Of a stretch of 64,000 bases of DNA, positions 8,095 to 52,562 are shown in pieces. The first letter of the stretch is position 1, and every line of letters starts with the position of its first letter. The notes below the pieces were generated by a model that ran no database searches, was not told the DNA's origin, and was given only the letters and a program-made list of their open reading frames with translations. The position numbers and the translations under genes were made by a program. Origin of the DNA: Wenyingzhuangia fucanilytica (GTDB lineage Bacteria; Bacteroidota; Bacteroidia; Flavobacteriales; Flavobacteriaceae); NCBI RefSeq assembly GCF_001697185.1, contig NZ_CP014224.1:186001-250000 (forward strand), in the 5' to 3' direction.

Positions 8095-8116
8095 AAATAA
8101 AGGAGTAACCTCAGTA

Positions 8117-8208: not shown

Positions 8209-8220
8209 CCACTCAAAAAT

Positions 8221-8281
8221 AGCCGTTAGCCATAGCCTTTAACTCCAAAGCCAAAAGCAAACAGCCAATAGCCAATAAGCT
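8221..8281 (+). repeat. Heptad array in the leuS leader, AGCC-type unit
   Basis: The tetramer AGCC (or AGCA/AGCT) recurs at 8221, 8228, 8234, 8249, 8256, 8263, 8270 and 8278, so most steps are exactly 7 nt with a few one-base slips. The array fills the space between the predicted promoter and the leuS ATG. The pitch is that of the YCG arrays further right but the unit is different. Confidence 0.7.
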
Positions 8282-8286
8282 AAAAA

Positions 8287-20934: not shown

Positions 20935-20937
20935 GGT

Positions 20938-20965: not shown

Positions 20966-21019
20966 AAGAGTTCTAAAAGCGAAGCGTACTAAATACCAAT
21001 TTCTAACTACTTTATTTTA

Positions 21020-36392: not shown

Positions 36393-36425
36393 CAATTTTT
36401 TTGAATAAGATAACACATAAGTAAG

Positions 36426-36677: not shown

Positions 36678-36689
36678 GAACAATATAAT

Positions 36690-36761
36690 GGTCCGTTCGT
36701 CTAGGGGTTAGGACGCATGGTTTTCATCCATGTAACAGGGGTTCGATTCCCCTACGGACTA
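36690..36761 (+). tRNA. tRNA-Glu (anticodon TTC), copy 2
   Basis: Identical in sequence to the copy at 36321-36392. It starts 12 nt after the rpsT stop and is followed directly by a terminator. No separate promoter box is visible in that gap, so it should be processed from the same transcript. Confidence 0.95.
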
Positions 36762-36763
36762 CT

Positions 36764-36881: not shown

Positions 36882-36972
36882 TCGAAACCCGAATATCGAA
36901 ACCCGAAAAACGATAACCGAACATCGCAAATCGCAAATCGAATACCGATAACCGAACATCACCAATCGAACA
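36882..36972 (+). repeat. YCG-type heptad array A (13 units)
   Basis: Thirteen 7-mers in strict register: TCGAAAC, CCGAATA, TCGAAAC, CCGAAAA, ACGATAA, CCGAACA, TCGCAAA twice, TCGAATA, CCGATAA, CCGAACA, TCACCAA, TCGAACA. The 463-nt gap 36762-37224 holds a terminator, this array, two REP-like elements (36978 and 37025) and a second array at 37118. The non-repeat flank upstream (from about 36863) is also found, slightly changed, upstream of the second array (from about 37099). Confidence 0.9.
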
Positions 36973-36977
36973 CTAGT

Positions 36978-37010
36978 CATTGAGAAGCCTGTACTGAGCT
37001 TGTCGAAGTA
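36978..37010 (+). repeat. REP-like element, long-form left part
   Basis: CATTGAG followed by AAGCCTGTACTGAGCTTGTC and GAAGTA. It matches the first two thirds of the complete long elements at 40794 and 46281 but lacks the closing GTCGAGATG next to it; a complete short element follows at 37025. Confidence 0.75.
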
Positions 37011-37024
37011 TATATCAGATCGGT

Positions 37025-37044
37025 CATCGAGCGAAGTCGAGATG
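37025..37044 (+). repeat. REP-like element, short form
   Basis: CATCGAGCGAAGTCGAGATG, a 20-nt imperfect hairpin: CATC pairs with GATG, then a tandem G-A/A-G step, then G-C, with a CGAAG apex. Confidence 0.8.
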
Positions 37045-37117
37045 CACTATCTTAAGATGATATCAATATTTCACGAAAACATTAAGATGTTGTTGTCAAA
37101 AATATTCCTTTCTTACA

Positions 37118-37187
37118 TCGAAACCCGAAACCCGAATGCCGATAACCGAACATCGCTAATCGATAACCGAGATCCGAACATCGCAAA
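37118..37187 (+). repeat. YCG-type heptad array B (10 units)
   Basis: Ten 7-mers in register, from TCGAAAC at 37118 to TCGCAAA ending at 37187, including CCGATAA, CCGAACA twice and CCGAGAT. The array ends 37 nt before the anmK start. Confidence 0.9.
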
Positions 37188-37224
37188 TTATTCCTTAATA
37201 TTGCTCTATATCAAAATATAGACA

Positions 37225-38274
37225 GTGAAAAATACTTTTGTAATAGGATTAATGTCTGGAACTTCTCTAGATGGGGTAGATTTGGTGTATGCTGAGTTTA
37301 AGGAGGTGAATAATTTTACCATCTTAAAAGCACAAACTATTCCTTATCCACAAGATTGGTTTCTAAAACTTAAAAACATAGCTGATTATCCAAAAGGAGC
37401 TAAAGAGTTAGAGGTTTTAGATGTTGAGTTAGGAAAGTATTATGGGGAGCTGTTGTTGACTTTTATTCAACAACATAACATCAAACAAATAGATTTGATT
37501 GCTTCTCATGGCCATACTGTACATCATCAACCTGAATTGGGTTATACTTTGCAAATTGGATCTGGAGAAGAAATATTTAAGAAGACCAAAATAAAAACGG
37601 TTCATGATTTTAGAGAGCAAGATGTTTTATTGGGAGGACAAGGAGCGCCGCTAGTTCCTATAGGAGATCAATTGTTGTTTTCGGAATATGATTATTGTCT
37701 AAACCTGGGAGGGTTTTCAAATGTGTCTTATCAAGAAGATGGACAGAGAAAAGCTTTTGATATTTGTCCTGTGAATACTGTATTGAATTTTTATGCGAAT
37801 CAATTGGGTTTTGATTATGACCAAAACGGAGAGTTGTCTAAAAAAGGAATCTTAAACAAGGAATTGTTGGTTGAGTTAAATCAATTAACGTTTTATCTGT
37901 CTACAGCTCCAAAATCTTTAGGGGTGGAGTTTTTAAAGCAGGAGGTTTATCCATTGTTGAATAAATATAGTATCCCTCAAATAGATATCATGAGAACTTT
38001 TGTAGAGCATATAGCTTATCAGTTAACAGTTAAGTTAGCAAAAGGAACTGTGCTAGTTACTGGAGGTGGAGCTTACCATGCTTTTTTAATTCGTCGTATG
38101 AAGGAACTTAATCCAAATTTAACATTAATTATTCCTTCAAAAGAAATTGTTGATTATAAAGAAGCTTTGGTGTTTGGACTTTTAGGTTTGCTAAAGTTAA
38201 AAGGTCAGGTAAATTGTTTGTCAAGTGTTACGGGGGCTAGCAAAGACCATGCTTCGGGAACGGTTGTTTTTTAA
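37225..38274 (+). CDS. anmK: Anhydro-N-acetylmuramic acid kinase
   Basis: AnmK opens and phosphorylates 1,6-anhydro-MurNAc from cell-wall turnover, giving MurNAc-6-phosphate. The 349-residue protein starts with the ATP-binding loop FVIGLMSGTSLDGVDLVYAE and carries SHGHTVHHQPELGYTLQIGS, LNLGGFSNVSY and VTGGGAYHAFLIRRMKEL. The start is GTG; no ATG lies near the family start. The gene is monocistronic, with repeats upstream and a short gap downstream. Confidence 0.93.
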   Translation: MKNTFVIGLMSGTSLDGVDLVYAEFKEVNNFTILKAQTIPYPQDWFLKLKNIADYPKGAKELEVLDVELGKYYGELLLTFIQQHNIKQIDLIASHGHTVHHQPELGYTLQIGSGEEIFKKTKIKTVHDFREQDVLLGGQGAPLVPIGDQLLFSEYDYCLNLGGFSNVSYQEDGQRKAFDICPVNTVLNFYANQLGFDYDQNGELSKKGILNKELLVELNQLTFYLSTAPKSLGVEFLKQEVYPLLNKYSIPQIDIMRTFVEHIAYQLTVKLAKGTVLVTGGGAYHAFLIRRMKELNPNLTLIIPSKEIVDYKEALVFGLLGLLKLKGQVNCLSSVTGASKDHASGTVVF

Positions 38275-38414
38275 TGATGATTGTTAATGAGATGGGTAGT
38301 ATTCTTAACAATTTTAATCGATTTTGTTTGATTCATTAAAAATAACATAGGCTATTGTTTTAAAGAGTCTTAAAATGTTATTTTAGCAATCAAATTTTTA
38401 AAATATAAAATAAA

Positions 38415-39878
38415 ATGAAATATTTTCTAGGGTCTAGTCCTAAGTGGTTCAAACTTATCATGATATTTTTCTTATTGATAAATATTCCAATCTCAATATT
38501 TGCTCCTCACGTTGGTGCGTGGTTATTTATTGGAGAGTTTATCTTTACGTTAGCAATGGCTTTAAAATGTTATCCACTTCAATCAGGTGGTTTGTTGGCT
38601 ATTGAAATTATCATTTTGGGCTTAACATCGCCAGAAAAAGCTTATCACGAAGTAGATCAAAATTTAGAAGTATTGCTTTTGTTGGTTTTTATGGTAGCGG
38701 GAATCTACTTTATGAAACCATTATTGATGTATATCTTTAGTAAGATTTTTACCAAGATAAAATCAAAAATAGTACTGTCTTTATTGTTTGTATTCTTATC
38801 AGCAATCTTATCTGCTTTCTTAGATGCTTTAACTGTAACTGCGGTGTTGATTAGTGTAGCAGTTGGTTTTTATGGTATTTATCACAAAATTCACTCAAAT
38901 GGAGGAGATTATAATGCTGATGGTGTTTTAGATACTAAAGAGTTAAGTGGTGAAACATTAGAGCAGTTTAGAAGTTTCTTAAGAAGTTTAATCATGCATG
39001 GAGTTGTAGGTACAGCTTTAGGTGGGGTTTGTACTTTGGTAGGAGAGCCTCAAAACTTATTGATTGGTGAAAGAATGGGATGGGATTTCATTGAGTTCTT
39101 TGTAAGAATGTCGCCTATTACAATGCCTGTTTTGGTTTGTGGTTTATTAACAACCATATTTTTAGAGGTAACAGGTCTTTTTGGTTTTGGAGCAAAATTA
39201 CCTAAAATAGCAGATCAAATTATCCAAGGATATACCAATGAACAAGATCAAAAAAGAAGTGCAAAAGAAAAGTATGGATTAAAAATTCAAGGTCTTGCAG
39301 CAATCTTATTAATAGCAGGTTTGGCATTGCATTTGGCTCCAGTAGGATTTATTGGTTTGGCTTTAATTATCTTTCAAACAGCTTTCATGGGAATTACCGA
39401 AGAGCACCAACTGGGACATGCTTTTGAAGAGGCATTACCTTTTACAGGTTTGTTAGTAGTTTTCTTTGTAGTAGTAGCAATGATTCATGATCAACATTTG
39501 TTTTCGCCAATTATCCATTGGGCATTAGATCAAAGTCCAGAATCACAACCAGGTTTGTTTTATGTAGCAAATGGTGTTTTATCAGCGATTAGTGATAATG
39601 TATTCGTAGCAACGGTGTACATTGGTGAGGTTCAAGAAGCGTTTAAATCAGGCGCAATTGATAGAGAACATTTTGAACATTTAGCGATTGCAATTAACAC
39701 TGGAACAAATTTACCAAGTGTGGCAACACCAAACGGACAGGCAGCATTTTTATTCTTATTAACATCTGCATTGGCTCCGTTAATCAACCTATCTTATGGA
39801 ACAATGGTGAAAATGGCTTTGCCTTATACAATTGTTTTAGGTGGAGTAGGATACTTAATGGTGAGAATTATTTTATAA
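38415..39878 (+). CDS. nhaB: Na+/H+ antiporter NhaB
   Basis: An inner-membrane sodium-proton antiporter of 487 residues with about 12 hydrophobic segments. The block [20 protein letters not shown] plus [30 protein letters not shown] and [20 protein letters not shown] plus FYGIYHKI is collinear with E. coli NhaB. It would export sodium in exchange for protons and fits a marine lifestyle. It stands alone; a terminator follows. Confidence 0.93.
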
Positions 39879-39896
39879 TAAAACTTACAAAATATA

Positions 39897-39932
39897 TCAA
39901 AAAGGAATCTTAGCAATAAGGTTCCTTTTTTT
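39897..39932 (+). terminator. Terminator of nhaB
   Basis: AAAAAGGAA and the following CTTA pair with TAAG and TTCCTTTTT around a short loop, with one bulge, followed by T residues. Confidence 0.75.
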
Positions 39933-39991
39933 GTTTATGGAGATGCAATAATAAATTGTATTTTCGTTACATAAATTAAGTATTTATAATT

Positions 39992-40675
39992 ATGATTCAG
40001 AATCAAGAAGAAGTGTTGCCAGTAGTAGAGGCTAGTCAAGAAAAAACCTTATCAATCTTCCAGTTAATCATGGATGGTGGTTTAGGAGGACAAATTATTA
40101 TGGGGATTTTATTTATCCTATTAGTAATGGCTGTGTACATATATATAGAAAGATTTTTAGCCATCAAAGCAGCCAATAAAGTGGATAAAAACTTTATGAA
40201 TCAGATAAAAGAGCAAATTAGCGCGGGGAATATTGATGCGGCTAAAATGTTATGTGCTAAGGTGGATTTACCAGTAGCAAATTTGATTGAAAAAGGAGTG
40301 TCTAGAATTGGAAAGCCTTTGGAGGATATCAATACAGCGATTGAAAATGCTGGAAAGTTAGAGATTTATAAGTTAGAGAAAAACGTAAGTGTTTTGGCAA
40401 CCATTTCTGGTGCAGCACCAATGATTGGTTTTTTAGGAACAGTAATTGGAATGATTGTTTCTATTCACGAAATAGCCAATGCAGGTGGGCAAATAGATAT
40501 TAAAATGTTGTCTGATGGTTTGTACACGGCAATGACAACAACGGTAGGAGGATTAATAGTTGGGATTATTTCTTATATAGCCTATAACCATATAGTAGCT
40601 AAAACAGATAAAGTAGTATATAAAATGGAAGCTACTTCTGTAGAGTTTTTAGATTTATTAAACGAACCAGTATAA
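39992..40675 (+). CDS. MotA/TolQ/ExbB proton channel family protein
   Basis: A 227-residue inner-membrane protein with three hydrophobic segments (about 34-57, 140-165, 185-210). The channel motifs SVLATISGAAPMIGFLGTVI plus GMIVSIHEIANAGG and LYTAMTTTVGGLIVGIISYI are those of ExbB/TolQ. With the ExbD-like and TonB-like genes that follow it should form a proton-driven energy transducer for outer-membrane processes. A heptad array of 91 nt and a long REP-like element separate it from the ExbD-like gene. Confidence 0.88.
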   Translation: MIQNQEEVLPVVEASQEKTLSIFQLIMDGGLGGQIIMGILFILLVMAVYIYIERFLAIKAANKVDKNFMNQIKEQISAGNIDAAKMLCAKVDLPVANLIEKGVSRIGKPLEDINTAIENAGKLEIYKLEKNVSVLATISGAAPMIGFLGTVIGMIVSIHEIANAGGQIDIKMLSDGLYTAMTTTVGGLIVGIISYIAYNHIVAKTDKVVYKMEATSVEFLDLLNEPV

Positions 40676-40687
40676 ATTTCCCAAATC

Positions 40688-40778
40688 CCGATATCCGATA
40701 TCCGATATCCGATATCCGATAACCGAACAACGAATATCGAACCCCGAACATCGCTAACCGAAACCCGAACATCGAAGT
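40688..40778 (+). repeat. YCG-type heptad array C (13 units)
   Basis: Four perfect copies of CCGATAT are followed by CCGATAA, CCGAACA, ACGAATA, TCGAACC, CCGAACA, TCGCTAA, CCGAAAC, CCGAACA and TCGAAGT. It begins 12 nt after the exbB stop. The four identical units look like a recent slippage expansion. Confidence 0.9.
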
Positions 40779-40793
40779 AGAGTCGAGATTGGT

Positions 40794-40838
40794 CATCGAG
40801 CAGCCTGTACAGAGCTTGTCGAAGTAGAGTCGAGATGC
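40794..40838 (+). repeat. REP-like element, long form
   Basis: A 45-nt element: CATCGAG, then CAGCCTGTACAGAGCTTGTC and GAAGTAGA, closed by GTCGAGATGC. It is the short form with a different, longer apex. A partial short form (CATCGAAGTAGAGTCGAGAT) overlaps the end of the preceding array at 40771. The ExbD start codon is 25 nt downstream. Confidence 0.8.
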
Positions 40839-40863
40839 AAGAACCATAAAATAAAACTGAATA

Positions 40864-41256
40864 ATGAACATCAGAAGTAGAAATAAAGTAAGCGCAGATT
40901 TTAACATGTCGTCAATGACGGACATTGTTTTCTTGTTGTTAATTTTCTTTATGTTAGCCTCCACTTTAGTAACGGTAAATGCTATTGATGTATTATTGCC
41001 AAAAGCAGGTGGGAAAACAGAAAATAAAGGAATTGTATCTGTTTCAATCACAAAAGATGGTGATTACTATATTGATGCGGATAAAGTAGAATTCAATCAA
41101 TTAGAAAATTCGTTATTGACAAAAATGTCATCAACAAAAGAAGGTTCTTTAGTCATTAGAGGTGATCACGAATCTGCTTATAAAAACATTATGCAAGTCA
41201 TTGATATTGCAAACAGAAATAAAATCAAAATGATTTTAGCAGTAAAAGGTCAATAA
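40864..41256 (+). CDS. ExbD/TolR family protein
   Basis: A 130-residue protein with one N-terminal membrane helix (about 18-38). The aspartate in FNMSSMTDIVFLLLIFFMLA, required for proton coupling in this family, is present. The periplasmic part has the ExbD fold (VSVSITKDGDYYIDADKVEF). It partners with the ExbB-like and TonB-like proteins encoded on either side. It starts 4 nt before the TonB-like gene. Confidence 0.9.
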   Translation: MNIRSRNKVSADFNMSSMTDIVFLLLIFFMLASTLVTVNAIDVLLPKAGGKTENKGIVSVSITKDGDYYIDADKVEFNQLENSLLTKMSSTKEGSLVIRGDHESAYKNIMQVIDIANRNKIKMILAVKGQ

Positions 41257-41260
41257 ATAG

Positions 41261-42088
41261 ATGATGTTTAAAACCACATATCAAAAACAATCAGCCATTT
41301 TAACCGCTATCTTAATGGTATTGGTGGTGTTTATCATGTTCTTTTGTGGGTTGAGATATTTAGATCCTCCAGAGGAATATGGAGTGGCTATTAATTTTGG
41401 TACTTCAGATGTAGGTTCAGGAGCGCCAAAGTTGAATGAAAGCATTCAGTCTAACCCTACTCCAAGTCAGGCAGAGCCTGTTACCAAAAGTGTTGAAAAT
41501 AACGTTACAGAAGAAAAAGTCATCACTCAAGAAAATGCGGAAGCGCCAGTAATCAAGCCAAAAGAAAAAAAAACTGAGCAGCCTGTAAAAACAGTTGAAA
41601 AAAAGGTAGAGGAGAAAAAAGTAGAAAAACCTGTAGAAAAAAAAGCACCAACGCCTACCAAAGAAACTCAGAATGTATTGAATAGTTTGTTTGGAAACCC
41701 ATCAAAAGGAGAAGTGGTAGAAGGAGAGGGAGATGATACTGCTCAAGGGGTAAAAGGAAGTACTTCGGGAGATCCAAATAGTGATAAATATTATGGAAAT
41801 AAAGGTTTAGATGGAGATGGGGATTATTTATTAGGTGGGAGAGAAGCTATGTCTAAACCGAAAATAACCCCCAATTGTAATGAAGAGGGAATCGTTGTGG
41901 TTAAAGTAACGGTTAACAATGACGGAAAAGTAATCAGTGCAGTCCCTGGAGAAAAAGGAACCACTAATAGCAGTCCATGTTTGTTTGAACCAGCAAAAAA
42001 AGCAGCTTTGGCAACCACTTGGAATGCAGATGGCAATGCTCCAAGTAAACAAGTAGGTTATATATATTATTACTTTAAGCCAAAATAA
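41261..42088 (+). CDS. TonB-like energy transducer protein
   Basis: A 275-residue protein with a short cytoplasmic start, one membrane helix (about 13-33), a Pro/Glu/Lys/Val-rich periplasmic spacer (about 80-140, with EKKVEEKKVEKPVEKKAPTP), a Gly/Asp-rich segment and a C-terminal domain (about 200-275) that resembles TonB (NEEGIVVVKVTVNNDGKVIS). It would connect the ExbB-ExbD motor to outer-membrane receptors or act in a Tol-like role. The gene pair starts 4 nt after exbD. Confidence 0.8.
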   Translation: MMFKTTYQKQSAILTAILMVLVVFIMFFCGLRYLDPPEEYGVAINFGTSDVGSGAPKLNESIQSNPTPSQAEPVTKSVENNVTEEKVITQENAEAPVIKPKEKKTEQPVKTVEKKVEEKKVEKPVEKKAPTPTKETQNVLNSLFGNPSKGEVVEGEGDDTAQGVKGSTSGDPNSDKYYGNKGLDGDGDYLLGGREAMSKPKITPNCNEEGIVVVKVTVNNDGKVISAVPGEKGTTNSSPCLFEPAKKAALATTWNADGNAPSKQVGYIYYYFKPK

Positions 42089-42129
42089 GTAACTTCCGAA
42101 GTAGGTAATAGAGTTACAAAAAATAATAA

Positions 42130-42157
42130 TACTCAGTGCTCAATACTCAGTACTATA
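42130..42157 (+). repeat. Short heptad array directly upstream of folC, ACTCA-type unit
   Basis: TACTCAG, TGCTCAA, TACTCAG and TACTATA follow one another in exact 7-nt register and stop one base before the folC ATG. Confidence 0.7.
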
Positions 42158-42158
42158 T

Positions 42159-43391
42159 ATGAATTATCAAGAAACTTTAGATTGGTTGTTTAACCAGTTG
42201 CCAATGTACCAAAAAGATGGTGCTAAGGCTTATAAAAAAGATTTGTCAAATACACTTTTGTTGATGGATTATTTAGGTAATCCAGAACAGCAAATTAAAG
42301 CTATTCATGTAGCAGGTACTAACGGAAAAGGGTCTACAAGTCATATGCTGGCTTCTGTTTTACAAGAGCAAGGCTATCAAGTGGGTTTGTATACTTCTCC
42401 GCATTTAATTGATTTTAGGGAGCGAATTAAAATCAACGGACAAGAAATTTCAGAGGGGTATATTGTTGATTTTGTAGCAAAACATAAAAGTTTTTTTGAG
42501 CAAAATGCTTTGTCCTTTTTTGAAATGACAGTAGGATTGTCTTTTGAATATTTTAAAGATTCAAAAGTGGATTATGTAGTCTTAGAAACAGGATTGGGAG
42601 GAAGGTTAGATTCTACCAATGTGGTGACTCCTTTGGTGTCAGTGATTACAAACATTGGTTTAGATCACACTCAGTTTTTAGGAGATACTTTACCTTTAAT
42701 AGCCTCTGAAAAAGGAGGGATTATCAAACGCAATATTCCTGTAGTGATTGGAGAGTATCATGAGGAGACTTTTGAAGTTTTTGAAGGAATTGCGAATAAA
42801 AACAATGCACCATTATATAAAGCCTTTGATTTAGGAGAGGTATTATATGATTGTGAGTTAAAGGGAGAGTATCAAAAGTATAATTTAAAAACAGTTGTTA
42901 GAGCCTTGGAGGTTTTACAGGGCTTAGGAGTTGAGTTAACTGAGCAAGCTATAGAAAATGGATTGTCTAAAGTGATTCAGAATACAGGTTTGTTGGGGAG
43001 GTATCAGGTAGTACAAGAGTTGCCAAAACTGGTTTGTGATACAGGACATAATAAAGAAGGAATTGCTTTGGTATTGTCTCAGTTACTGGCAGAGGATTTT
43101 GAGAAATTACACATTGTTTTTGGAGTGGTAGATGATAAGGATTTAGGTAGTGTGTTACCTTTACTACCAAAACAAGCACAGTTTTATTTTACAAAACCTT
43201 CAATAGCAAGAGGTTTGTCAGAAGAAAAGTTAAAAGACATAGCAGAAGAATTTGGATTAGCAGGAGATACTTTTACAACCGTAGAACAAGCGGTGAATAC
43301 AGCGTTGACAAATGCAAAACCACAAGATTTGATATATGTTGGAGGGAGTACCTTTGTAGTAGCAGATTATTTGAGTTTGATTATAAAATAA
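42159..43391 (+). CDS. folC: Folylpolyglutamate synthase / dihydrofolate synthase
   Basis: FolC adds glutamate to dihydropteroate and/or extends the glutamate tail of folates. The 410-residue Mur-ligase-type protein has the P-loop HVAGTNGKGSTSHMLASVLQ, the SPHLIDFRERIKING loop and the catalytic LETGLGGRLDSTNVVTPLVS, with the C-terminal domain containing CDTGHNKEGIALVL and GVVDDKDLGSVLPLL. Standard length. It follows the TonB-like gene after 70 nt that hold a short heptad array and no clear promoter. Confidence 0.93.
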   Translation: MNYQETLDWLFNQLPMYQKDGAKAYKKDLSNTLLLMDYLGNPEQQIKAIHVAGTNGKGSTSHMLASVLQEQGYQVGLYTSPHLIDFRERIKINGQEISEGYIVDFVAKHKSFFEQNALSFFEMTVGLSFEYFKDSKVDYVVLETGLGGRLDSTNVVTPLVSVITNIGLDHTQFLGDTLPLIASEKGGIIKRNIPVVIGEYHEETFEVFEGIANKNNAPLYKAFDLGEVLYDCELKGEYQKYNLKTVVRALEVLQGLGVELTEQAIENGLSKVIQNTGLLGRYQVVQELPKLVCDTGHNKEGIALVLSQLLAEDFEKLHIVFGVVDDKDLGSVLPLLPKQAQFYFTKPSIARGLSEEKLKDIAEEFGLAGDTFTTVEQAVNTALTNAKPQDLIYVGGSTFVVADYLSLIIK

Positions 43392-43404
43392 TATTTAGAA
43401 CCAC

Positions 43405-43537
43405 CCGAATATCGCTCATCGAAACCCGCCAACCGAACATCGCCCATCGCCAACCGAATCCCGAACATCGAATATCGTAATCCGAACATCGCCCATCGCC
43501 AATCGTTCATCGAATCCCGATAATCGAAGACCGCTAA
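43405..43537 (+). repeat. YCG-type heptad array D (19 units)
   Basis: Nineteen 7-mers without a slip, from CCGAATA (43405) to CCGCTAA (ending 43537), including CCGAACA three times, TCGCCCA twice and TCGCCAA twice. No REP-like hairpin follows. The array separates folC from the promoter of the polysaccharide locus. Confidence 0.92.
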
Positions 43538-43588
43538 CAATTTTCCCAAAACCTAGAGTAGAATCAGTTAAGCTAAAAAACATTATTA

Positions 43589-43596
43589 TATATTTG
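43589..43596 (+). promoter_or_regulatory. Predicted -7 box at the start of the polysaccharide locus
   Basis: TATATTTG, a perfect TAnnTTTG, 25 nt before the epimerase ATG. The -33 region is weak. Confidence 0.5.
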
Positions 43597-43621
43597 TCGT
43601 TTATAAAACTAAAGACTTTCT

Positions 43622-44650: not shown

Positions 44651-44655
44651 TAGCT

Positions 44656-45681: not shown

Positions 45682-45698
45682 TTTTTTAGAAATAAGTG

Positions 45699-45728
45699 TT
45701 TGACAAATGAAATAAAGTTCTATATTTG
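45699..45728 (+). promoter_or_regulatory. Promoter of the tRNA-Val pair
   Basis: TTTG (45699-45702), 18 nt, then TATATTTG (45721-45728), 10 nt before the first tRNA-Val. It lies just after the manC-like stop. Confidence 0.85.
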
Positions 45729-45738
45729 CACCCGCTAA

Positions 45739-45813
45739 GGGCAATTAGCTCAGTTGGTTCAGAGCACCTCGTTTACACCGAGGGGGTCGGGGGTTCGAAT
45801 CCCTCATTGCCCA
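45739..45813 (+). tRNA. tRNA-Val (anticodon TAC), copy 1
   Basis: A 75-nt gene with acceptor stem GGGCAAT/ATTGCCC, anticodon stem CCTCG/CGAGG with loop TTTACAC giving TAC, and a GGTTCGAATC T loop. No CCA follows the discriminator A. Confidence 0.95.
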
Positions 45814-45847
45814 CAAAAGGTTTCCTTAGTACCTTCAAAAAAAATTA

Positions 45848-45925
45848 GGGCAATTAGCTCAGTTGGTTCAGAGCACCTCGTTTACACCGAGGGGGTCGGG
45901 GGTTCGAATCCCTCATTGCCCACCA
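45848..45925 (+). tRNA. tRNA-Val (anticodon TAC), copy 2, with encoded CCA
   Basis: The first 75 nt are identical to copy 1. The discriminator A at 45922 is followed by CCA (45923-45925), which the first copy lacks. The copies are 34 nt apart and share the promoter at 45699-45728. Confidence 0.93.
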
Positions 45926-45930
45926 TAAAA

Positions 45931-45960
45931 AACCTATTCGTTATCGGATAGGTTTTTTTT
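45931..45960 (+). terminator. Terminator of the tRNA-Val pair
   Basis: A 10-bp stem (45931-45940 with 45945-45954, one G-T pair) with a TTAT loop and a tail of T residues, 5 nt after the second tRNA. Confidence 0.9.
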
Positions 45961-45983
45961 ATTTTCCACACCGCTCCTCAAGC

Positions 45984-46053
45984 TCGAAAATCGATAAACG
46001 ATAACCGAACATCGTAAATCGCCCATCGCAAACCGATCATCACACATCACTAA
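45984..46053 (+). repeat. YCG-type heptad array E (10 units)
   Basis: Ten 7-mers in register from TCGAAAA (45984) to TCACTAA (46053). The last two carry TCA instead of TCG. The 450-nt gap 45926-46375 holds a terminator, this array, about 80 nt of non-repeat DNA, a REP-like core, a second array and a long REP-like element. Confidence 0.85.
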
Positions 46054-46093
46054 TTTTCTTCGCAATATTAGGTATTCCTTCCGGCTCTTTTTC

Positions 46094-46101
46094 TATATTT
46101 G
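46094..46101 (+). promoter_or_regulatory. Possible -7 box upstream of wlbA
   Basis: TATATTTG is a perfect TAnnTTTG in the non-repeat island between two arrays, but no TTTG is 18-20 nt upstream. If used, array F and a REP-like hairpin would be in the wlbA leader. Confidence 0.35.
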
Positions 46102-46146
46102 AAAGTTCATGGTTTATTGGTAATATATCGTGAGTCAAACAACGAA

Positions 46147-46173
46147 GAAGCCTGTATTGAGCTTGTCGAAGTA
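46147..46173 (+). repeat. REP-like element, core only
   Basis: GAAGCCTGTATTGAGCTTGT followed by CGAAGTA matches the core of the long elements at 40794 and 46281, without the CATCGAG and GTCGAGATG arms. Confidence 0.7.
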
Positions 46174-46177
46174 AACA

Positions 46178-46289
46178 TCGCAACCCGAATATCGCCAACC
46201 GATCATCGCTAGCGGAACATCGATCATCGCTAGCCGAACATCGAAACCCGAACATCGAAACCCGAACATCGAAACCCGAACATCGAGTA
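46178..46289 (+). repeat. YCG-type heptad array F (16 units)
   Basis: Sixteen 7-mers in register. The second half shows a 14-bp super-unit, CCGAACA plus TCGAAAC, three times. Two units end in TAG (TCGCTAG), one is CGGAACA. The last unit, TCGAGTA, is also the left arm of the REP-like element at 46281. Confidence 0.92.
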
Positions 46290-46325
46290 GCCTGTGCAGA
46301 GCTTGTCGAAGTAGAGTCGAGATGC
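46281..46325 (+). repeat. REP-like element, long form
   Basis: Same 45-nt length and layout as the element at 40794: CATCGAG, TAGCCTGTGCAGAGCTTGTC, GAAGTAGA, GTCGAGATGC. The centre differs at TGTGCAG versus TGTACAG. Confidence 0.8.
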
Positions 46326-46362
46326 AAAACATAACATAAAGAAAAACAAACCCTCAAAGAAC

Positions 46363-46369
46363 AAAGGAG
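46363..46369 (+). promoter_or_regulatory. Shine-Dalgarno-like sequence of wlbA
   Basis: AAAGGAG lies 6 nt before the ATG at 46376. Such a sequence is unusual here; most genes of the window have only an A-rich stretch before the start. Confidence 0.5.
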
Positions 46370-46375
46370 TAAAAA

Positions 46376-47350
46376 ATGAAAAAAAACTTTGCCTTAATAG
46401 GAGCTGCAGGATACATTGCTCCAAGACATTTAAAAGCTATTAAAGACACTGATAATGTCTTGTTGGCTGCTTTGGATAAGAATGATAGTGTCGGAATAAT
46501 AGATTCATATTTTCCGGAGGCTTCATTTTTTGTTGAGTTTGAAAGGTTTGATAGGCATGTAGAAAAATTAAAAAGAGAGCAAGGGTTGCAGTTGGATTAT
46601 GTGAGTATTTGTACACCAAATTATTTACATGATGCGCATATTAGAATGGCACTAAGGTCAGGGGCAAATGCAATTTGTGAAAAACCATTGGTGTTAAACC
46701 CTTGGAATATTGATGCTTTACAGGCGATTGAAAATGAAACAGGTAAAAAAATATTTACCATTCTTCAGTTGAGACATCATCAAGCAATATTAGATTTGAA
46801 GGAAAAGGTTGAGAATGCACCTAAGGATAAGGTGTTTGATGTAGATTTAACTTATTTAACTTCTAGAGGTAAGTGGTACTATGCTTCTTGGAAAGGAGAA
46901 CAATCAAAGTCTGGAGGGATTGCATCAAATATTGGTGTTCATTTTTTTGATATGCTAGGTTGGGTGTTTGGTGAGTTAAAAGAAAACTTAGTTTACGAAC
47001 ATGCCCATGATAGAGCATCTGGTTATTTGGTTTTTGAGAAAGCAAGAGTCAAGTGGTTTTTATCTATTAATTATGATTTAATTCCTGAGGAAATAAAAGA
47101 AAAGAATCAGAGAACTTATAGATCAATAACAGTAGATGGTGAAGAGGTTGAGTTTAGTGGTGGGTTTACAGAATTACATACAGAGAGTTATAAGCACATT
47201 TTAGCGAATAATGGTTTTGGTTTAGAAGAGGCAAGAACGTCTATTGAAATTGTGCATGAAATCAGAAATTCAGAAATAGTGGTGCCTAAAAATGACAAAG
47301 TACATCCGATGTTTTATAAACAAAAAACCAAGCATCCTTTTGATTTATAG
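46376..47350 (+). CDS. wlbA: Gfo/Idh/MocA oxidoreductase, WlbA/WbpB-like UDP-GlcNAcA 3-dehydrogenase
   Basis: A 324-residue NAD-dependent dehydrogenase. The start NFALIGAAGYIAPRHLKAIK and the stretches LDYVSICTPNYLHDAHIRMA, AICEKPLVLNPWNIDAL, ILQLRHHQAILDLKEKV and VDLTYLTSRGKWYYASWKGE are collinear with WlbA/WbpB. These enzymes oxidise C3 of UDP-GlcNAcA before transamination and acetylation to a 2,3-diacetamido uronic acid. The EKP lysine and the later HFFDMLGWVFG region are present. The next gene probably supplies UDP-GlcNAcA, but no aminotransferase (WbpE) or acetyltransferase (WbpD) is next to it. Confidence 0.88.
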   Translation: MKKNFALIGAAGYIAPRHLKAIKDTDNVLLAALDKNDSVGIIDSYFPEASFFVEFERFDRHVEKLKREQGLQLDYVSICTPNYLHDAHIRMALRSGANAICEKPLVLNPWNIDALQAIENETGKKIFTILQLRHHQAILDLKEKVENAPKDKVFDVDLTYLTSRGKWYYASWKGEQSKSGGIASNIGVHFFDMLGWVFGELKENLVYEHAHDRASGYLVFEKARVKWFLSINYDLIPEEIKEKNQRTYRSITVDGEEVEFSGGFTELHTESYKHILANNGFGLEEARTSIEIVHEIRNSEIVVPKNDKVHPMFYKQKTKHPFDL

Positions 47351-47426
47351 GTGTTTTTAGGGAAGATTTTGATGGAGTTGATTAGTAATTTTTAGTGTTT
47401 TTAACATATGTTATCGAGTTTTAATT

Positions 47427-47434
47427 TATATTTG
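47427..47434 (+). promoter_or_regulatory. Predicted -7 box upstream of the WbpA/TviB-like gene
   Basis: TATATTTG, a perfect TAnnTTTG. An upstream TTG at 47439 is in frame with the gene but falls 5 nt after this box, so it cannot be the start if the promoter is used; the ATG at 47460 is then the first usable codon. Confidence 0.5.
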
Positions 47435-47459
47435 CGCTTTGGAAAAAGAAAATGATAAA

Positions 47460-48743
47460 ATGACAATAGGGGTAATAGGTTTGGGATATGTGGGGTTGCC
47501 TTTAGCAAGACTTTTTTCAACCCAATATGCTACAGTAGGGTTTGATATAGATAAAGAAAGAGTTTCTGAATTAAATCAAGGTGTCGATAAGACCTTAGAA
47601 GTAGAAAGAGAAGCGCTACAAAAAGTACTTTTACCTTCAGTTTTAGAGGTAGAAAGGTCAACAGGTCTTTATTGTACATCAAAACTTAATGATTTATCCA
47701 ATTGTAATTTTTATGTAATTACAGTACCTACACCAGTTGATAAAAATAATAGGCCCGTATTAACTCCATTAATCAAGGCAAGTGAAACTGTAGGGGCAGT
47801 GTTGAAAAAAGGAGATATAGTGGTGTATGAATCTACAGTATATCCTGGGGCAACCGAAGAAGATTGTATTCCTGTTTTAGAAAAGGTTTCTGGTTTAAAG
47901 TTTAATCAAGACTTTTTTGCGGGTTATTCCCCAGAGCGAATCAATCCAGGAGATAAATTGCACACTGTAGATAAGATATTAAAAGTAACTTCAGGTTCTA
48001 CTCCAGAAATTGGAGAAAAAATAGATAAAGTTTATCGTTCGGTAATTTCTGCCGGAACACATTTAGCACCTACCATAAGAGTAGCAGAAGCCGCTAAGGT
48101 GATAGAAAATTCACAAAGAGACATCAATATTGCTTTTGTTAATGAATTGTCTAAAATATTCAATTTAATGAATATTGATACGAGTGATGTTTTAGCAGCT
48201 GCAAGTACCAAATGGAATTTTTTACCTTTTAAGCCAGGTTTGGTTGGGGGACATTGTATAGGTGTTGACCCGTATTATTTAGCCCAAAAGGCTCAAGAAT
48301 TTGGTTATCATCCAGAGATTATTTTAGCAGGGAGAAGGATGAATGATAGTATGGGATCTTATGTTGCTGCACAAGTAGCAAAGCTAATGATTCATCATGA
48401 TTTAAAAGTAAAAGCTGCCGAAGTGTTGGTGTTGGGAATTACTTTTAAAGAGAATTGTCCTGATGTAAGAAATACAAAAGTGGTGGATGTAGTAAGAGAA
48501 TTACAAGACTATGGGATGCAAGTAGAAATATTTGATCCATTGGCTAACCCTCAGGAAGTTGAAAGGGAGTATAGATTAAAAATACTTGATACAAAACCAA
48601 GTAAAAAATATGGAGCGATTGTTTTGGCAGTAGCACATCAAGAATTATTGAGTTTGGATTTAGAAAGTTTGTTGGTACAAAATGGAGTGGTATATGATGT
48701 AAAAGGAGTATTACCTAAAGAAAAAACCAACGGAAAATTATAA
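47460..48743 (+). CDS. UDP-N-acetylhexosamine 6-dehydrogenase (WbpA/TviB/CapL-like)
   Basis: A 427-residue UDP-sugar dehydrogenase with the N-terminal NAD fold TIGVIGLGYVGLPLARLFST, the central VYESTVYPGATEEDCIPVLE, catalytic C266 in VGGHCIGVDPYYLA, and the C-terminal substrate domain (LGITFKENCPDVRNTKVVDV). The subgroup includes enzymes for UDP-GlcNAc and UDP-GalNAc. Adjacent wlbA makes UDP-GlcNAc to UDP-GlcNAcA the most likely reaction. The frame is open to a TTG at 47439, rejected because of the promoter box. Confidence 0.85.
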   Translation: MTIGVIGLGYVGLPLARLFSTQYATVGFDIDKERVSELNQGVDKTLEVEREALQKVLLPSVLEVERSTGLYCTSKLNDLSNCNFYVITVPTPVDKNNRPVLTPLIKASETVGAVLKKGDIVVYESTVYPGATEEDCIPVLEKVSGLKFNQDFFAGYSPERINPGDKLHTVDKILKVTSGSTPEIGEKIDKVYRSVISAGTHLAPTIRVAEAAKVIENSQRDINIAFVNELSKIFNLMNIDTSDVLAAASTKWNFLPFKPGLVGGHCIGVDPYYLAQKAQEFGYHPEIILAGRRMNDSMGSYVAAQVAKLMIHHDLKVKAAEVLVLGITFKENCPDVRNTKVVDVVRELQDYGMQVEIFDPLANPQEVEREYRLKILDTKPSKKYGAIVLAVAHQELLSLDLESLLVQNGVVYDVKGVLPKEKTNGKL

Positions 48744-48803
48744 AAACGAAAGGATCTAAGCCTATTTATAGAGATTAAGAAAAAGAATTGTATAAAAAAT
48801 AAA

Positions 48804-48949
48804 TCGACCATCGCAAACCAAATATCGAATAACGATCACCGAACATCGATAACCGATAACCGATAACCGATAACCGAGAATCGCCAATCGAAACCCGAAT
48901 ATCGAATATCGCCAATCGAATAACGAACATCGAAGTAAAGTCGAGATGC
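48804..48949 (+). repeat. YCG-type heptad array G (19 units) with hairpin tail
   Basis: Nineteen 7-mers in register to 48936, including four consecutive copies of the CGATAAC frame (TCGATAA, then CCGATAA three times). The final TCGAAGT runs into AAAGTCGAGATGC (48937-48949), the closing arm of the REP-like element. Twenty A/T-rich bases later comes the ugd ATG. Confidence 0.9.
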
Positions 48950-48969
48950 AAAAAATAAAAAAATAAAAA

Positions 48970-50295
48970 ATGAACATTACAGTAGTAGGAACGGGATATG
49001 TAGGACTAGTTACTGGAACTTGTTTTTCTGAAATGGGAAATAAAGTAATATGTATTGACATAGATGAAAAAAAAGTTGAAGCATTAAAAAAAGGAATTAT
49101 TCCTATTTACGAGCCTGGTTTAGAGCCATTGGTAAAGAAAAACGTAGAATTAGGAAACCTGACTTTTAGTACTGATATAAAAGAAGGTTTAGAAAACTCA
49201 GAAGTAGCTTTCATTGCTGTTGGTACTCCTATGGGAGATGATGGTTCTGCAGATTTACAATATGTATTGGCGGTAGCTAAGCAAATTGGTGAAGAAATGA
49301 CAAAACCTTTAGTGGTAATAGACAAATCTACAGTGCCTATTGGAACCGCAGATAAAGTAAAAGCAACTATTAAAGCGGCACTAGATAAAAGAGGAGCAGA
49401 TATTGAATTTCATGTAGTGTCTAATCCTGAATTTTTAAAAGAAGGAGCAGCTGTAAATGATTTTATGAAACCAGACAGAGTTGTGATAGGAGCAGAAACC
49501 GAAGCAGCTTTTAAAGTGATGAGAAAGTTATATGCAACCTTTACACATAATCACGATAGATTGATAGAGATGGATGTGCGTTCTGCAGAAATGACCAAGT
49601 ATGCCGCAAATGCAATGTTGGCAACTAAAATCTCTTTTATGAATGAGATTGCAAATATTTGTGAAAAGGTTGGGGCAGATGCCAATAAAGTGAGAATTGG
49701 AATTGGTTCTGACAATAGAATTGGGTATAGTTTTATTTATCCAGGAGCTGGATACGGAGGTTCTTGTTTTCCTAAAGATGTAAAGGCCTTAAAGAAAATA
49801 GCAGAAGAAAATGGATACAAAGCTAAATTGATTACTTCTGTTGAAGAGGTGAATGATGCACAAAAAGTGGTCATCTCAAATAAAGTCATTGCTAGATTTG
49901 GTGAAGATTTATCAGGATACACCTTTGGTGTATGGGGATTATCTTTTAAACCAGGAACGGATGATATGCGTGAGGCACCAGCCATTTATGTAATCAAAGA
50001 ATTGGTGAAAAGAGGAGCAAAAGTAAAAGCTTATGACCCTAAAGCCATGCATGAAGCACAAGTATTTTATTTAAAAGGAGTGGAGAATGTAGAGTATGTG
50101 TCTTCTAAATACAAAGCTTTAGAAAATGCCGATGCGATGATTTTATTAACAGAATGGAAAGAATTTAGATCTCCTGATTTTATGGAAATAAAGACTTTGT
50201 TAAACTCGCCTATAGTATTTGACGGTAGAAATCAATATGGAGTGTTTGAAATAGAAAAAGAAGGATTTGAATATTATCAAATAGGAAAAGCATAA
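48970..50295 (+). CDS. ugd: UDP-glucose 6-dehydrogenase
   Basis: Ugd oxidises UDP-glucose to UDP-glucuronate. The 441-residue protein has NITVVGTGYVGLVTGTCFSE, VIDKSTVPIGTADKVKATIK, catalytic C266 in GYGGSCFPKDVKALKKIA, and LSFKPGTDDMREAPAIYVIK. Length and motifs are those of the large Ugd class. UDP-GlcA is substrate for the epimerase at 43622. A heptad array precedes it, and another begins on the first base after its stop codon. Confidence 0.95.
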   Translation: MNITVVGTGYVGLVTGTCFSEMGNKVICIDIDEKKVEALKKGIIPIYEPGLEPLVKKNVELGNLTFSTDIKEGLENSEVAFIAVGTPMGDDGSADLQYVLAVAKQIGEEMTKPLVVIDKSTVPIGTADKVKATIKAALDKRGADIEFHVVSNPEFLKEGAAVNDFMKPDRVVIGAETEAAFKVMRKLYATFTHNHDRLIEMDVRSAEMTKYAANAMLATKISFMNEIANICEKVGADANKVRIGIGSDNRIGYSFIYPGAGYGGSCFPKDVKALKKIAEENGYKAKLITSVEEVNDAQKVVISNKVIARFGEDLSGYTFGVWGLSFKPGTDDMREAPAIYVIKELVKRGAKVKAYDPKAMHEAQVFYLKGVENVEYVSSKYKALENADAMILLTEWKEFRSPDFMEIKTLLNSPIVFDGRNQYGVFEIEKEGFEYYQIGKA

Positions 50296-50380
50296 CCGAA
50301 ACCCGACCATCGATCATCGCCAATCGCCAATCGCTAATCGAAACCCGACCATCGAAACCCGCTAAAACGAACAACGAACA
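50296..50380 (+). repeat. YCG-type heptad array H (10 clean units plus 2)
   Basis: The array starts immediately after the ugd TAA: CCGAAAC, CCGACCA, TCGATCA, TCGCCAA twice, TCGCTAA, TCGAAAC, CCGACCA, TCGAAAC, CCGCTAA, then after one extra A two ACGAACA units. The manA start is 11 nt downstream. Confidence 0.9.
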
Positions 50381-50391
50381 ATAAAAAGACC

Positions 50392-51366
50392 ATGATAAAT
50401 TATCCAATTAAATTCACTCCTATTCTTAAAGATAAAATTTGGGGAGGAGAAAAATTAAAAACTGTATTAAATAAAGAGACATCTTTAAATAATGTAGGAG
50501 AAAGCTGGGAATTATCTTCTGTAGATGGAGATATTTCTGTAGTGGCTAATGGAGTTTTAAAAGGAAAAAAATTAACAGAATTACTAGAGACATACCAAGA
50601 GCAATTGGTAGGGCAAAAAGTATATGGAGAATTTGGAAATAAATTTCCGTTGTTATTTAAGTTTATTGATGCTAAAGAAAATTTGTCTATTCAATTACAT
50701 CCAAATGATGAAATAGCTAAAAAATTACACAATTCTTTTGGGAAAACAGAAATGTGGTTTGTGATGGATGCTGATAAAAACTCAGAATTAAACATCGGAT
50801 TTTCTGAGGCTATGAATCCAGAAAAATATAAACAAGCAGTTGAAGATAAGAAAATATTAGACAAACTAAATTTTGAAAAAGTAACCAAAGGAGATTCTTT
50901 CTTTATTAAAGAAGGATTGGTTCATGCCATTGGTGCAGGTTGTTTAATTGCAGAAATTCAACAAACTTCTGATATTACTTATAGAATTTACGATTGGGAT
51001 AGGGTAGATGATCAAGGAAATGAACGTGAATTACATACCGAATTAGCTTTAGAGGCTTTAGACTATGATGCTGTTGGAGCCAATAAATGTAAATATGATG
51101 AAGAGGTAAATCAGCCTTCAAACATTGCTTCTTGCGAATACTTTACAACCAATTATGTTAAAGTTAATAATTTGTTTACGAGAGATTTATCTGAAGTACA
51201 GTCGTTTGCCGTGTATATTTGTGTTGGAGGACAAGGAACCATTGAAATAAATGGAAATACAGAAGAAATAAAAAGAGGAGAAACAGTTTTGATTCCTGCC
51301 AATACTCAAGAATTAGTAGTAAAATCAGAAGGAATAGAATTATTAGAAGTGTATATCAAATCATAA
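50392..51366 (+). CDS. manA: Mannose-6-phosphate isomerase, class I
   Basis: ManA interconverts fructose-6-phosphate and mannose-6-phosphate. The 324-residue cupin-type zinc enzyme has KFTPILKDKIWGGEKLKTVL, the metal/substrate region KENLSIQLHPNDEIAKKL, GKTEMWFVMDA and the second histidine region FIKEGLVHAIGAGCLIAEIQ plus Q. It supplies mannose-6-phosphate for GDP-mannose. The wecB gene starts on the base after its stop codon. Confidence 0.92.
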   Translation: MINYPIKFTPILKDKIWGGEKLKTVLNKETSLNNVGESWELSSVDGDISVVANGVLKGKKLTELLETYQEQLVGQKVYGEFGNKFPLLFKFIDAKENLSIQLHPNDEIAKKLHNSFGKTEMWFVMDADKNSELNIGFSEAMNPEKYKQAVEDKKILDKLNFEKVTKGDSFFIKEGLVHAIGAGCLIAEIQQTSDITYRIYDWDRVDDQGNERELHTELALEALDYDAVGANKCKYDEEVNQPSNIASCEYFTTNYVKVNNLFTRDLSEVQSFAVYICVGGQGTIEINGNTEEIKRGETVLIPANTQELVVKSEGIELLEVYIKS

Positions 51367-52488
51367 ATGGAAAAGAAAAACTTAATCATATTTGGAACTA
51401 GACCAGAAGCTATAAAAATGGCTCCACTGGTAAAAGAATTTTTAAAAAATAATGCTTTTGAAACAAGAGTGTGTGTAACAGCACAACATCGTGAAATGCT
51501 AGATCAAGTATTGTCTTTTTTTGAGATAGTACCTAATTATGATTTAGATTTAATGAAACCCAATCAAAATTTGTATTCTTTAACAGGAGACATTATCAAT
51601 GGCTTAAAACCAATTTTGGAAGATTTTAAACCCGACTATGTATACGTTCATGGAGATACAACCACTACCATGGCAGCTAGTATTGCAGCTTTTTATTCTG
51701 GAGCAAAAGTATGTCATGTAGAGGCAGGCTTAAGAACATTTAACAAGAGAGCCCCTTTTCCAGAAGAAATAAATAGAAGTATTGCAGGACGTGTTTGTGA
51801 TTATCATTTTGCACCAACAATCACTTCTAAAAACAACTTGATAAGAGAAAATATTGCTGAGAAAGATGTCTTAATTACCGGAAATACAGTTATTGATGCC
51901 CTACAGCATAGTGTAAAAAAGGTAGAGGATTTAGAGGATAAAGAAATTACTTTCCTAAAAGAAACTATAAATCTTTCTAAGCGAATAATTTTGGTAACAG
52001 GTCATAGACGAGAAAATCATGGACAAGGGTTTATCAATATTTGTTCAGCTCTAAAGCAAATAGCTGTAGAAAATCCAGACGCAGAAATTGTGTATCCAGT
52101 ACATTTAAATCCAAACGTACAAAAACCAGTATATGAATTATTAGATAAAGTAGAGAATGTTAGGCTAATCGCTCCTTTATCATACCCTGCGTTTGTTTGG
52201 TTAATGAATAAATCATATATCATCATTACAGATAGTGGAGGGGTACAAGAAGAAGCTCCTAGTTTAGGAAAACCAGTTTTGGTAATGAGAGACACTACAG
52301 AAAGGCCTGAAGCAGTAGAAGCAGGAACGGTTATTTTAGTAGGAACAGATACACAGAAAATTGTAGAGGAGGCAACAGCTTTACTAAGTAATAAAGAAAA
52401 ATATAACCAAATGAGTGCTTTACACAACCCTTATGGAGATGGAAACGCTTGTAAAAGAATTGTTGAATATATAGAAAACTTAGGATAA
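51367..52488 (+). CDS. wecB: UDP-N-acetylglucosamine 2-epimerase (non-hydrolysing)
   Basis: The 373-residue protein begins NLIIFGTRPEAIKMAPLVKE and contains VHGDTTTTMAASIAAFYSGA, VEAGLRTFNKRAPFPEEINR, TGHRRENHGQGFINI and ITDSGGVQEEAPSLGKPVLV, as in WecB/MnaA, which make UDP-ManNAc. WecC at 52614 would oxidise the product to UDP-ManNAcA. Because WlbA is in the same locus, a WbpI-like epimerase acting on UDP-2,3-diacetamido-glucuronate is a possible alternative. It abuts manA with no gap. Confidence 0.88.
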   Translation: MEKKNLIIFGTRPEAIKMAPLVKEFLKNNAFETRVCVTAQHREMLDQVLSFFEIVPNYDLDLMKPNQNLYSLTGDIINGLKPILEDFKPDYVYVHGDTTTTMAASIAAFYSGAKVCHVEAGLRTFNKRAPFPEEINRSIAGRVCDYHFAPTITSKNNLIRENIAEKDVLITGNTVIDALQHSVKKVEDLEDKEITFLKETINLSKRIILVTGHRRENHGQGFINICSALKQIAVENPDAEIVYPVHLNPNVQKPVYELLDKVENVRLIAPLSYPAFVWLMNKSYIIITDSGGVQEEAPSLGKPVLVMRDTTERPEAVEAGTVILVGTDTQKIVEEATALLSNKEKYNQMSALHNPYGDGNACKRIVEYIENLG

Positions 52489-52551
52489 CCGCATACTGAT
52501 TACCGATTGTCGAAACCCGAACAACGAAAATCGAAAATCGCTCATCGAGCG
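52489..52551 (+). repeat. YCG-type heptad array I (9 units)
   Basis: The array starts on the first base after the wecB TAA: CCGCATA, CTGATTA, CCGATTG, TCGAAAC, CCGAACA, ACGAAAA, TCGAAAA, TCGCTCA, TCGAGCG. The last unit is shared with the hairpin at 52543. Confidence 0.85.
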
Positions 52552-52562
52552 GAGTCGAGATG
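52543..52562 (+). repeat. REP-like element, short form, upstream of wecC
   Basis: CATCGAGCGGAGTCGAGATG. Its final ATG is in frame with wecC and creates a false upstream start codon (52560). Confidence 0.8.

Follow-up and report, generated by a model that had tools for sequence, protein, structure and literature searches.

A 64,000-nucleotide stretch of the Wenyingzhuangia fucanilytica chromosome (NZ_CP014224.1, positions 186,001-250,000 of a single contig of 3,427,057 bp) poses the question of why nine intergenic arrays of tandem 7-bp units, clustered at one locus and all of one polarity, keep a strict pitch with units that differ among themselves. This whole stretch is referred to below as the window, and positions are counted from its first base unless the chromosome is named. 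The nine arrays belong to a family of degenerate heptanucleotide repeats that is shared within the Wenyingzhuangia/Ochrovirga clade, and arrays with a 7-bp period are, more generally, associated with genes encoding the S23/IVP protein (annotated as "four helix bundle protein", PF05635). The explanation favoured here, tentatively, is that S23/IVP elements form a family whose arms also occur alone, and that the nine arrays could be such solo arms, which spread from gap to gap and became homogenised within each genome.

The arrays consist of YCGNNNN units, and all nine were present, on the plus (gene) strand, where the preliminary description had placed them. With the count restricted to units that have CG at positions 2-3, two arrays lie upstream of anmK (36882..36978, 12 units; 37118..37184, 10 units and immediately upstream of the gene), followed by arrays in the exbB-exbD gap (40688..40775, 13 units, with homogeneous CCGATAT units at its start), in the folC-epimerase gap (43405..43534, 19 units), behind two tRNA-Val genes (45984..46053, 8 units), upstream of a Gfo/Idh oxidoreductase gene (46178..46286, 15 units), in the tviB-ugd gap (48804..48936, 18 units), in the ugd-manA gap (50296..50386, 10 units, with 2 more behind a one-base register shift near 50366), and in the wecB-wecC gap (52489..52551, 8 units). 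The resulting 113 units agree with an earlier estimate of about 120, and the strict pitch, the degenerate units, the common orientation (9/9) and the single indel at 50366 were all likewise borne out. The statement that every longer gap of the locus contains an array was slightly too strong, as anmK-nhaB (143 bp), nhaB-exbB (116 bp) and gfo-tviB (91 bp) lack one and tonB-folC (73 bp) contains a different heptad. Among 130 loosely counted units (a count anchored on YCG), 61 are distinct, C occupies position 2 in 95% and G position 3 in 92%; when array bounds were drawn from lag 7 only, the values were 94% and 88% (100 units in eight of the nine arrays, the array at 46178 being left out of this set because it falls below the lag-7 screen). 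Tandem 7-nt units, strict pitch and intergenic position place the arrays among repeats of the general kind of the short tandemly repeated repetitive (STRR) sequences; adjacent units are 56-66% identical in the eight arrays, short of the near-identical units of STRR-type repeats.

The period does not depend on the YCG motif. Of 30 window gaps of at least 60 bp, 9 contained a 42-bp segment with at least 26 lag-7 matches; the remaining lags from 4 to 12 gave 0 or 1, and 200 dinucleotide shuffles gave 0.07 positive gaps on average and never more than 1. Seven of the nine positive gaps contain the nine YCG arrays and two (8095-8286 and 20935-21019) contain other sequences.

The locus was compared among W. 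fucanilytica, W. marina, W. heitensis, W. gilva, W. sp. 2_MG-2023, W. aestuarii and Ochrovirga pacifica. The gene order anmK-nhaB-exbB-exbD-tonB-folC-epimerase-gmp-gfo-tviB-ugd was conserved in the stretches compared (that of W. sp. 2_MG-2023 ends after gmp), and degenerate YCG arrays occupied this syntenic locus in Ochrovirga as well as in three of the Wenyingzhuangia genomes. The ugd-manA gap, which in W. fucanilytica has one array and no S23 gene, is composed of an array, an S23 gene and a second array in W. aestuarii and Ochrovirga. A S23 gene of this locus type lies elsewhere in the locus in W. gilva, W. heitensis and W. fucanilytica, the last at chromosome position 253,978, about 4 kb past the window, with an internal stop. 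All five genomes have YCG arrays on both sides of the gene; the encoded proteins are 69-91% identical, and the best other S23 protein in the set is 54% identical to that of W. aestuarii. The four S23 genes listed for W. marina are of other types. The YCG arms are direct rather than complementary (direct score 29-74, inverted score 15, at four loci), and both arrays and locus-type S23 genes lie between protein genes, not inside 23S rRNA. The W. aestuarii protein matches bAvd with an E-value of 1.6e-6, below the curated Pfam cut-off, and the S23 protein has two solved relatives, 2gsc and 2rld, with five chains each. We take S23 proteins to form nucleic-acid-binding pentamers akin to Avd.

Given the array-S23-array arrangement at ugd-manA in W. 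aestuarii and Ochrovirga, the flanks of S23 genes were tested in general. Within the genus, 30 of 39 listed matches were fetched and 26 analysed; from the rest of the family, 89 of 131 listed matches were fetched, better-scoring ones first, and 82 analysed, so that 108 of 119 fetched loci remained after 11 had been dropped in which no open reading frame (ORF) of 70 or more codons covered the match. A locus was scored positive when either flank contained 24 matches in 42 positions. At lag 7 this was true of 63/108 loci (11/26 in the genus, 52/82 outside it); other lags from 4 to 12 gave 1-3 loci, except lag 8, which gave 14. Mean lag-7 identity was 0.374 in the 130-bp S23 flanks and 0.271 in control stretches, and the other lags from 3 to 15 gave 0.27-0.31 in the S23 flanks, lag 14 (0.35) excepted. 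Small control genes had such flanks in 6/101 cases in S23-rich genomes (Fisher P 1e-17 against the 52/82 loci outside the genus), 2/102 in S23-free genomes and 3/55 in W. fucanilytica itself. A phylum-wide draw, comprising 27 analysed loci of 29 additional ones taken from the best-ranked matches and including some genomes of the same family, gave 10 positives at lag 7 and 6 at lag 8. Arrays are thus about ten times as frequent at S23 flanks as at other small genes, which argues against an alternative that is considered rather unlikely here, namely that STRR-type heptads generated by slippage have decayed by point mutation, retaining their pitch since substitutions outnumber small indels, and that S23 genes merely occupy repeat-tolerant gaps.

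The association extends to cyanobacterial plasmids. Among 32 plasmid records with S23, 18 were fetched and the 17 cyanobacterial ones analysed, a Riemerella record being omitted; 13 of the 17 loci were positive at lag 7, compared with 5 at lag 8 and 4 at lag 6. These loci are not all independent because a few are close relatives, two of them being alike. Neighbouring genes in three Nostoc plasmid stretches, which come from only two strains, served as the control and were positive in 5/91 cases. The S23 gene of Nostoc edaphicum, located between nrdB and nrdA and antisense to both, has GGGAGTA and CCCTACT arms, and that of Pseudanabaena, between cas6 and cas4, has direct AAAAGCT and AAAAGCC arms. 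As a separate observation, plasmid S23 genes lie between CRISPR genes at three loci, twice between cas6 and cas4 and once between cas10 and a cmr3-family gene. Random sequence from S23-rich (five) and S23-free (three, no match at 1e-20) genomes, 400 kb of each, yielded 9 and 2 lag-7 clusters, respectively, at 25/42, with other lags reaching 6 and 5; about 7 and 0 of these appeared convincing by eye, and the S23-rich stretches contained no S23 gene. This difference in clusters lends weak support at most. Counted by gap at 24/42, lag 7 was positive in 12/160 gaps of S23-rich and 5/167 of S23-free genomes.

The symmetry of the arms differs between S23 loci at large and those of the YCG type. Flank similarity above the 95th percentile of mismatched pairs was inverted at 67/108 loci and direct at 19/108; the corresponding counts were 18 versus 4 of 27 in the phylum set and 10 versus 1 of 17 in the cyanobacterial set. 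In the family set, C-rich upstream arms number four, and these belong to the YCG loci. Considered as a sign of special polarity, the G-rich composition of other upstream arms was uninformative, as upstream flanks lacking arrays are G-rich as well (61/67). Several S23 genes stand between conserved biosynthetic genes, namely at four his or hem loci and a hemE set of six, the his and hem names being presumptive and assigned from protein motifs. At hisH-hisA, an S23 gene with GTACNNN heptad arms is present in 4/7 genomes and absent from 3/7, and in these three short heptads persist (16, 20 and 14 lag-7 matches of 21, and at most 11 at lags 5, 6, 8 and 9). The remaining heptads are of CCAA type in W. 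fucanilytica and of GTAC type in W. heitensis; W. aestuarii has three ACGAACA units and part of another, ACGAACA being the commonest unit in its main arrays. At the hemE gap, both arms differ together between species groups (32.7 versus 18.9).

Complementary flanks at 67/108 loci also fit an RNA-level function, in which transcribed arrays would be bound at spaced sites by an RNA-binding protein (S23 might be one) or would serve as processing signals resembling the intervening sequence (IVS) of 23S rRNA. The Coxiella 23S IVS is described in PMC4990558 as an S23 ORF between terminal inverted repeats that are cut by RNase III; the S23 loci as a set resemble it in having an S23/IVP ORF between complementary termini and differ in that S23 lies between protein genes, many flanks are 7-bp-pitched and YCG arms are direct. 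The upstream gene is on the same strand as S23 in 105/108 loci (from crude ORF calling and with no expectation computed), and the A/C-rich strand of the arrays is the gene strand in 40/40 cases (32 larger arrays from W. fucanilytica, W. heitensis, W. aestuarii and Ochrovirga, and eight small ones from W. gilva and W. marina), both as an RNA-level role would have it. Pairing between S23 flanks showed no sense preference, however: among 54 loci with strong duplexes, the duplex was stronger on the sense strand in 29 and on the antisense strand in 22, so that mRNA-level structure, one of the roles suggested in the preliminary description, gained no support from this comparison, which covers S23 flanks only. 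Direct, A/C-rich YCG arms would, moreover, hardly pair with each other, and heptads occur inside the coding sequence of GDP-mannose dehydratase (gmd). A loop in this protein, present in four Wenyingzhuangia and absent in Ochrovirga, is encoded by in-frame heptads in three of them, with a lag-7 identity of 0.61 in W. aestuarii, 0.47 in W. gilva and 0.48 in W. heitensis, and is not heptad-like in the fourth, W. marina (0.20). The protein of W. aestuarii exceeds that of W. heitensis by 21 residues. An RNA-level function is accordingly regarded as improbable. The W. marina loop contains another repeat-like sequence (CAGTTCGAGTG ... ATCGAGAACAG), which was seen by eye in several gaps of W. marina and W. 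gilva.

Composition brings in a further candidate. Rho-utilisation (rut) sites are stretches of RNA rich in C and poor in G in which a YC dinucleotide recurs every 7 nt, and the sense strand of the 32 larger arrays contains A 40, C 33, G 16 and T 12%. The genes bordering the arrays are co-directional, and termination there would be polar; YC is absent from some other heptad families (CTACTGA). A function in Rho recruitment is considered highly improbable.

Slippage has to be weighed again when the remainder of the chromosome is considered. The preliminary description would have been undermined by a lag-7 signal in shuffled sequence or by its lack elsewhere in the genome; shuffled window gaps show no such signal, but it is scarce outside the locus, with 1 strong array in ten random 20-kb stretches (200 kb) and, at the looser threshold of 24/42, lag 7 in 4/86 gaps, the same as lag 8. 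Because random stretches show almost none, the signal is mainly local and not genome-wide. A sequence model built from the nine arrays (R1) gave 38 matches in the genome, a number in which some places count twice, once for each strand; the strongest matches are grouped at 222.9-263.6 kb of the chromosome, a range that continues past the window end, and others lie near 413-414, 635, 1026, 1084-1086, 1723 and 2127 kb. Perfect TCGCTAA arrays are found at 413.4, 414.4 and 2127.4 kb (17, 11 and 21 copies), and the same unit occurs in degenerate arrays. These perfect arrays favour slippage, as do tonB-folC gap lengths that by eye differ by apparent whole units and the over-representation of heptamers already known in bacteria (PMC4692102). 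Decay of the window arrays points the other way: conservation varies more among their seven unit positions than it does under star decay (0/300 simulations reach the observed value), and a slippage birth-and-decay model of our own reached this unevenness in 5/300 simulations. As the unevenness exceeds star decay and the usual outcome of slippage, it suggests that the YCG core of the window arrays is under constraint. The earlier contention that the arrays are unlike slippage repeats thus stands for the uneven conservation of positions within the window and fails for the perfect TCGCTAA arrays of the same genome.

The distribution of units among relatives also bears on slippage. A single array used as a BLAST query matched 4/60 genomes (W. 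fucanilytica included, with W. heitensis, W. aestuarii and one genome from another family), and R1 at 1e-8 with stricter filters matched 12/199 family genomes (one per genus); W. fucanilytica had 17 matches and Ochrovirga 15, compared with 1-2 per genome among the remaining ten. The same gaps bear heptads in different species, yet the family or sequence differs: the folC-epimerase gap contains YCG units in W. fucanilytica and W. heitensis and CTTCTCA heptads in W. marina and W. gilva, whereas that of W. aestuarii and of Ochrovirga is free of heptads. In the 32 arrays with six or more units, 564 units and 3 register breaks were counted by a screen anchored on CG, which undercounts breaks and misses, for example, the shift near 50366. 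Unit sharing was 0.249 within genomes and fell to 0.122 between them (permutation P 0.0002); eight orthologous-gap pairs gave 0.132. Repertoires therefore follow the genome and not the gap, which suggests exchange between loci and argues against slippage.

Exchange could also involve genes. If the arrays were homology islands, their common orientation would allow genes of the polysaccharide locus to be exchanged with no inversion. The single polarity, the clustering at one locus in several species and the differing positions of the locus-type S23 gene between species are compatible with this idea. The arrays are degenerate, however, and the anmK-to-ugd order is conserved wherever the stretches cover that block, and thus the arrays are not frequent breakpoints within it; this possibility is considered very unlikely.

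The explanation favoured above, in which the nine arrays are solo arms of S23/IVP elements, would give the arrays a role in recombination or mobility, the type of role that is preferred here. Arrays would arise or spread with S23 elements, which would be their source and would themselves have moved; arms and solo arrays would spread into intergenic gaps by copying or by recombination between existing arrays, and would remain as solo arrays in tolerant gaps of the locus. Gain and loss of whole units could preserve the pitch, units may be exchanged and homogenised inside each genome, and the YCG core may be retained because a pairing step or a protein requires it. Several observations weigh against this explanation. 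No S23 gene or remnant was found within the window, many arrays are far from any S23 gene, and 45/108 S23 loci lack a lag-7 flank at the threshold used. The YCG arms are direct, unlike the inverted flanks found at 67 of 108 S23 loci (direct at 19). W. gilva has a locus-type S23 gene, yet its YCG units (25) are about as few as those of W. marina (23), a misfit with a simple dosage idea. Joint replacement of the two arms was seen at hemE but showed no difference at the three other orthologous S23 gaps compared, hisA, thiE and a fourth set. No event of excision, insertion or target duplication was seen, although none was looked for. Finally, no core conserved beyond what uniform decay gives was apparent in S23-flank arrays at large (mean chi-square 10.16 observed, 10.54 simulated), which is what slippage followed by decay would leave.

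Heptamer arrays as such are already known, and not only from cyanobacteria, as the preliminary description had supposed. MacGregor (2015; PMC4679880) describes TAACTGA repeats and "other heptamer direct repeats" in Bacteroidetes; the TAACTGA heptamers, which are tandem and mostly intergenic, are reported from five Bacteroidetes, and in Beggiatoaceae they are mostly forward, just upstream of start codons and locally mixed with other heptamers, with S1, Csp or Csr proteins proposed as binders. The window arrays are similar in their tandem 7-nt units and mostly intergenic position; unlike the TAACTGA repeats, which have one unit sequence, their units vary around a YCG core (YCGNNNN, not TAACTGA) and cluster at one locus. 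GGGNATC-type repeats occur in Xanthomonas and Nostoc, with 70 and 75 inverted repeat-site pairs in two Xanthomonas genomes (PMC4692102). They and the cyanobacterial STRR sequences share the 7-nt pitch and the mainly intergenic, dispersed distribution of the window arrays, from which the GGGNATC-type units differ in being G-rich. The main texts of PMC4679880 and PMC4692102 contain no word beginning with S23, and no publication tying heptamer arrays to S23 was found in the open-licence literature, which misses most subscription papers; the S23 link is therefore the novel part as far as the open-licence literature shows.

Heptamer repeats of cyanobacteria, Xanthomonas, Beggiatoaceae and Bacteroidetes have had no agreed function, nor is there a reason for the number seven. 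The reproducible statistical link to S23/IVP offers another partner, encoded between the repeats themselves, by which the question "why seven" becomes testable, and hints at a common origin for repeats described separately so far. It is conceivable, with doubt prevailing, that the STRR, TAACTGA and GGGNATC heptad arrays of Bacteroidota and cyanobacteria are arms or solo remnants of one class of S23/IVP-coding elements inserting between operon genes, and that S23-dependent copying makes and homogenises arrays in 7-bp steps. If S23 genes with heptad arms were indeed selfish inserts between operon genes, they would represent a type of bacterial element that is widespread yet has been overlooked.

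Two heptad arrays of other families lie on the plus strand of the window, a GCCAATA-like array upstream of a 963-aa ORF (8220..8295) and a short ACTCAGT/ACTCAAT array in the tonB-folC gap (42130..42155). The latter type is also found in W. gilva, W. aestuarii and W. marina, and the gap measures 15-17 bp in W. heitensis, W. sp. 2_MG-2023 and Ochrovirga. Repetitive extragenic palindromic (REP) and miniature inverted-repeat transposable element (MITE) types of palindrome are, like the arrays, intergenic and dispersed; the arrays differ from them in consisting of tandem 7-bp units. A REP-like dispersed element, GGTCATCGAGCGGAGTCGAGATG (within 3 mismatches), adjoins two arrays at 37022-37044 and 52540-52562 and recurs at 9180-9202 and 9227-9249, and pieces related to it by eye follow arrays at 40774, 46286 and 48934. 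Inverted pairs of GTACNNN-type heptads with a short loop and no S23 gene between them, paired by eye, were seen at about 516.3 kb of the W. fucanilytica chromosome (L083, 16270-16356) and in W. heitensis (L208, 8258-8331). Searches of the 36.2-53.9 kb region for Rfam families returned four tRNAs only. Two tRNA-Glu genes with an identical anticodon (36321-36762) stand on either side of a small ORF that presumably resembles ribosomal protein S20. A short YCG array is also present within a long ORF, apparently at the same place, in W. fucanilytica (L078, 7644-7721; 1258 codons) and W. marina (L082, 8974-9053; 1256 codons).

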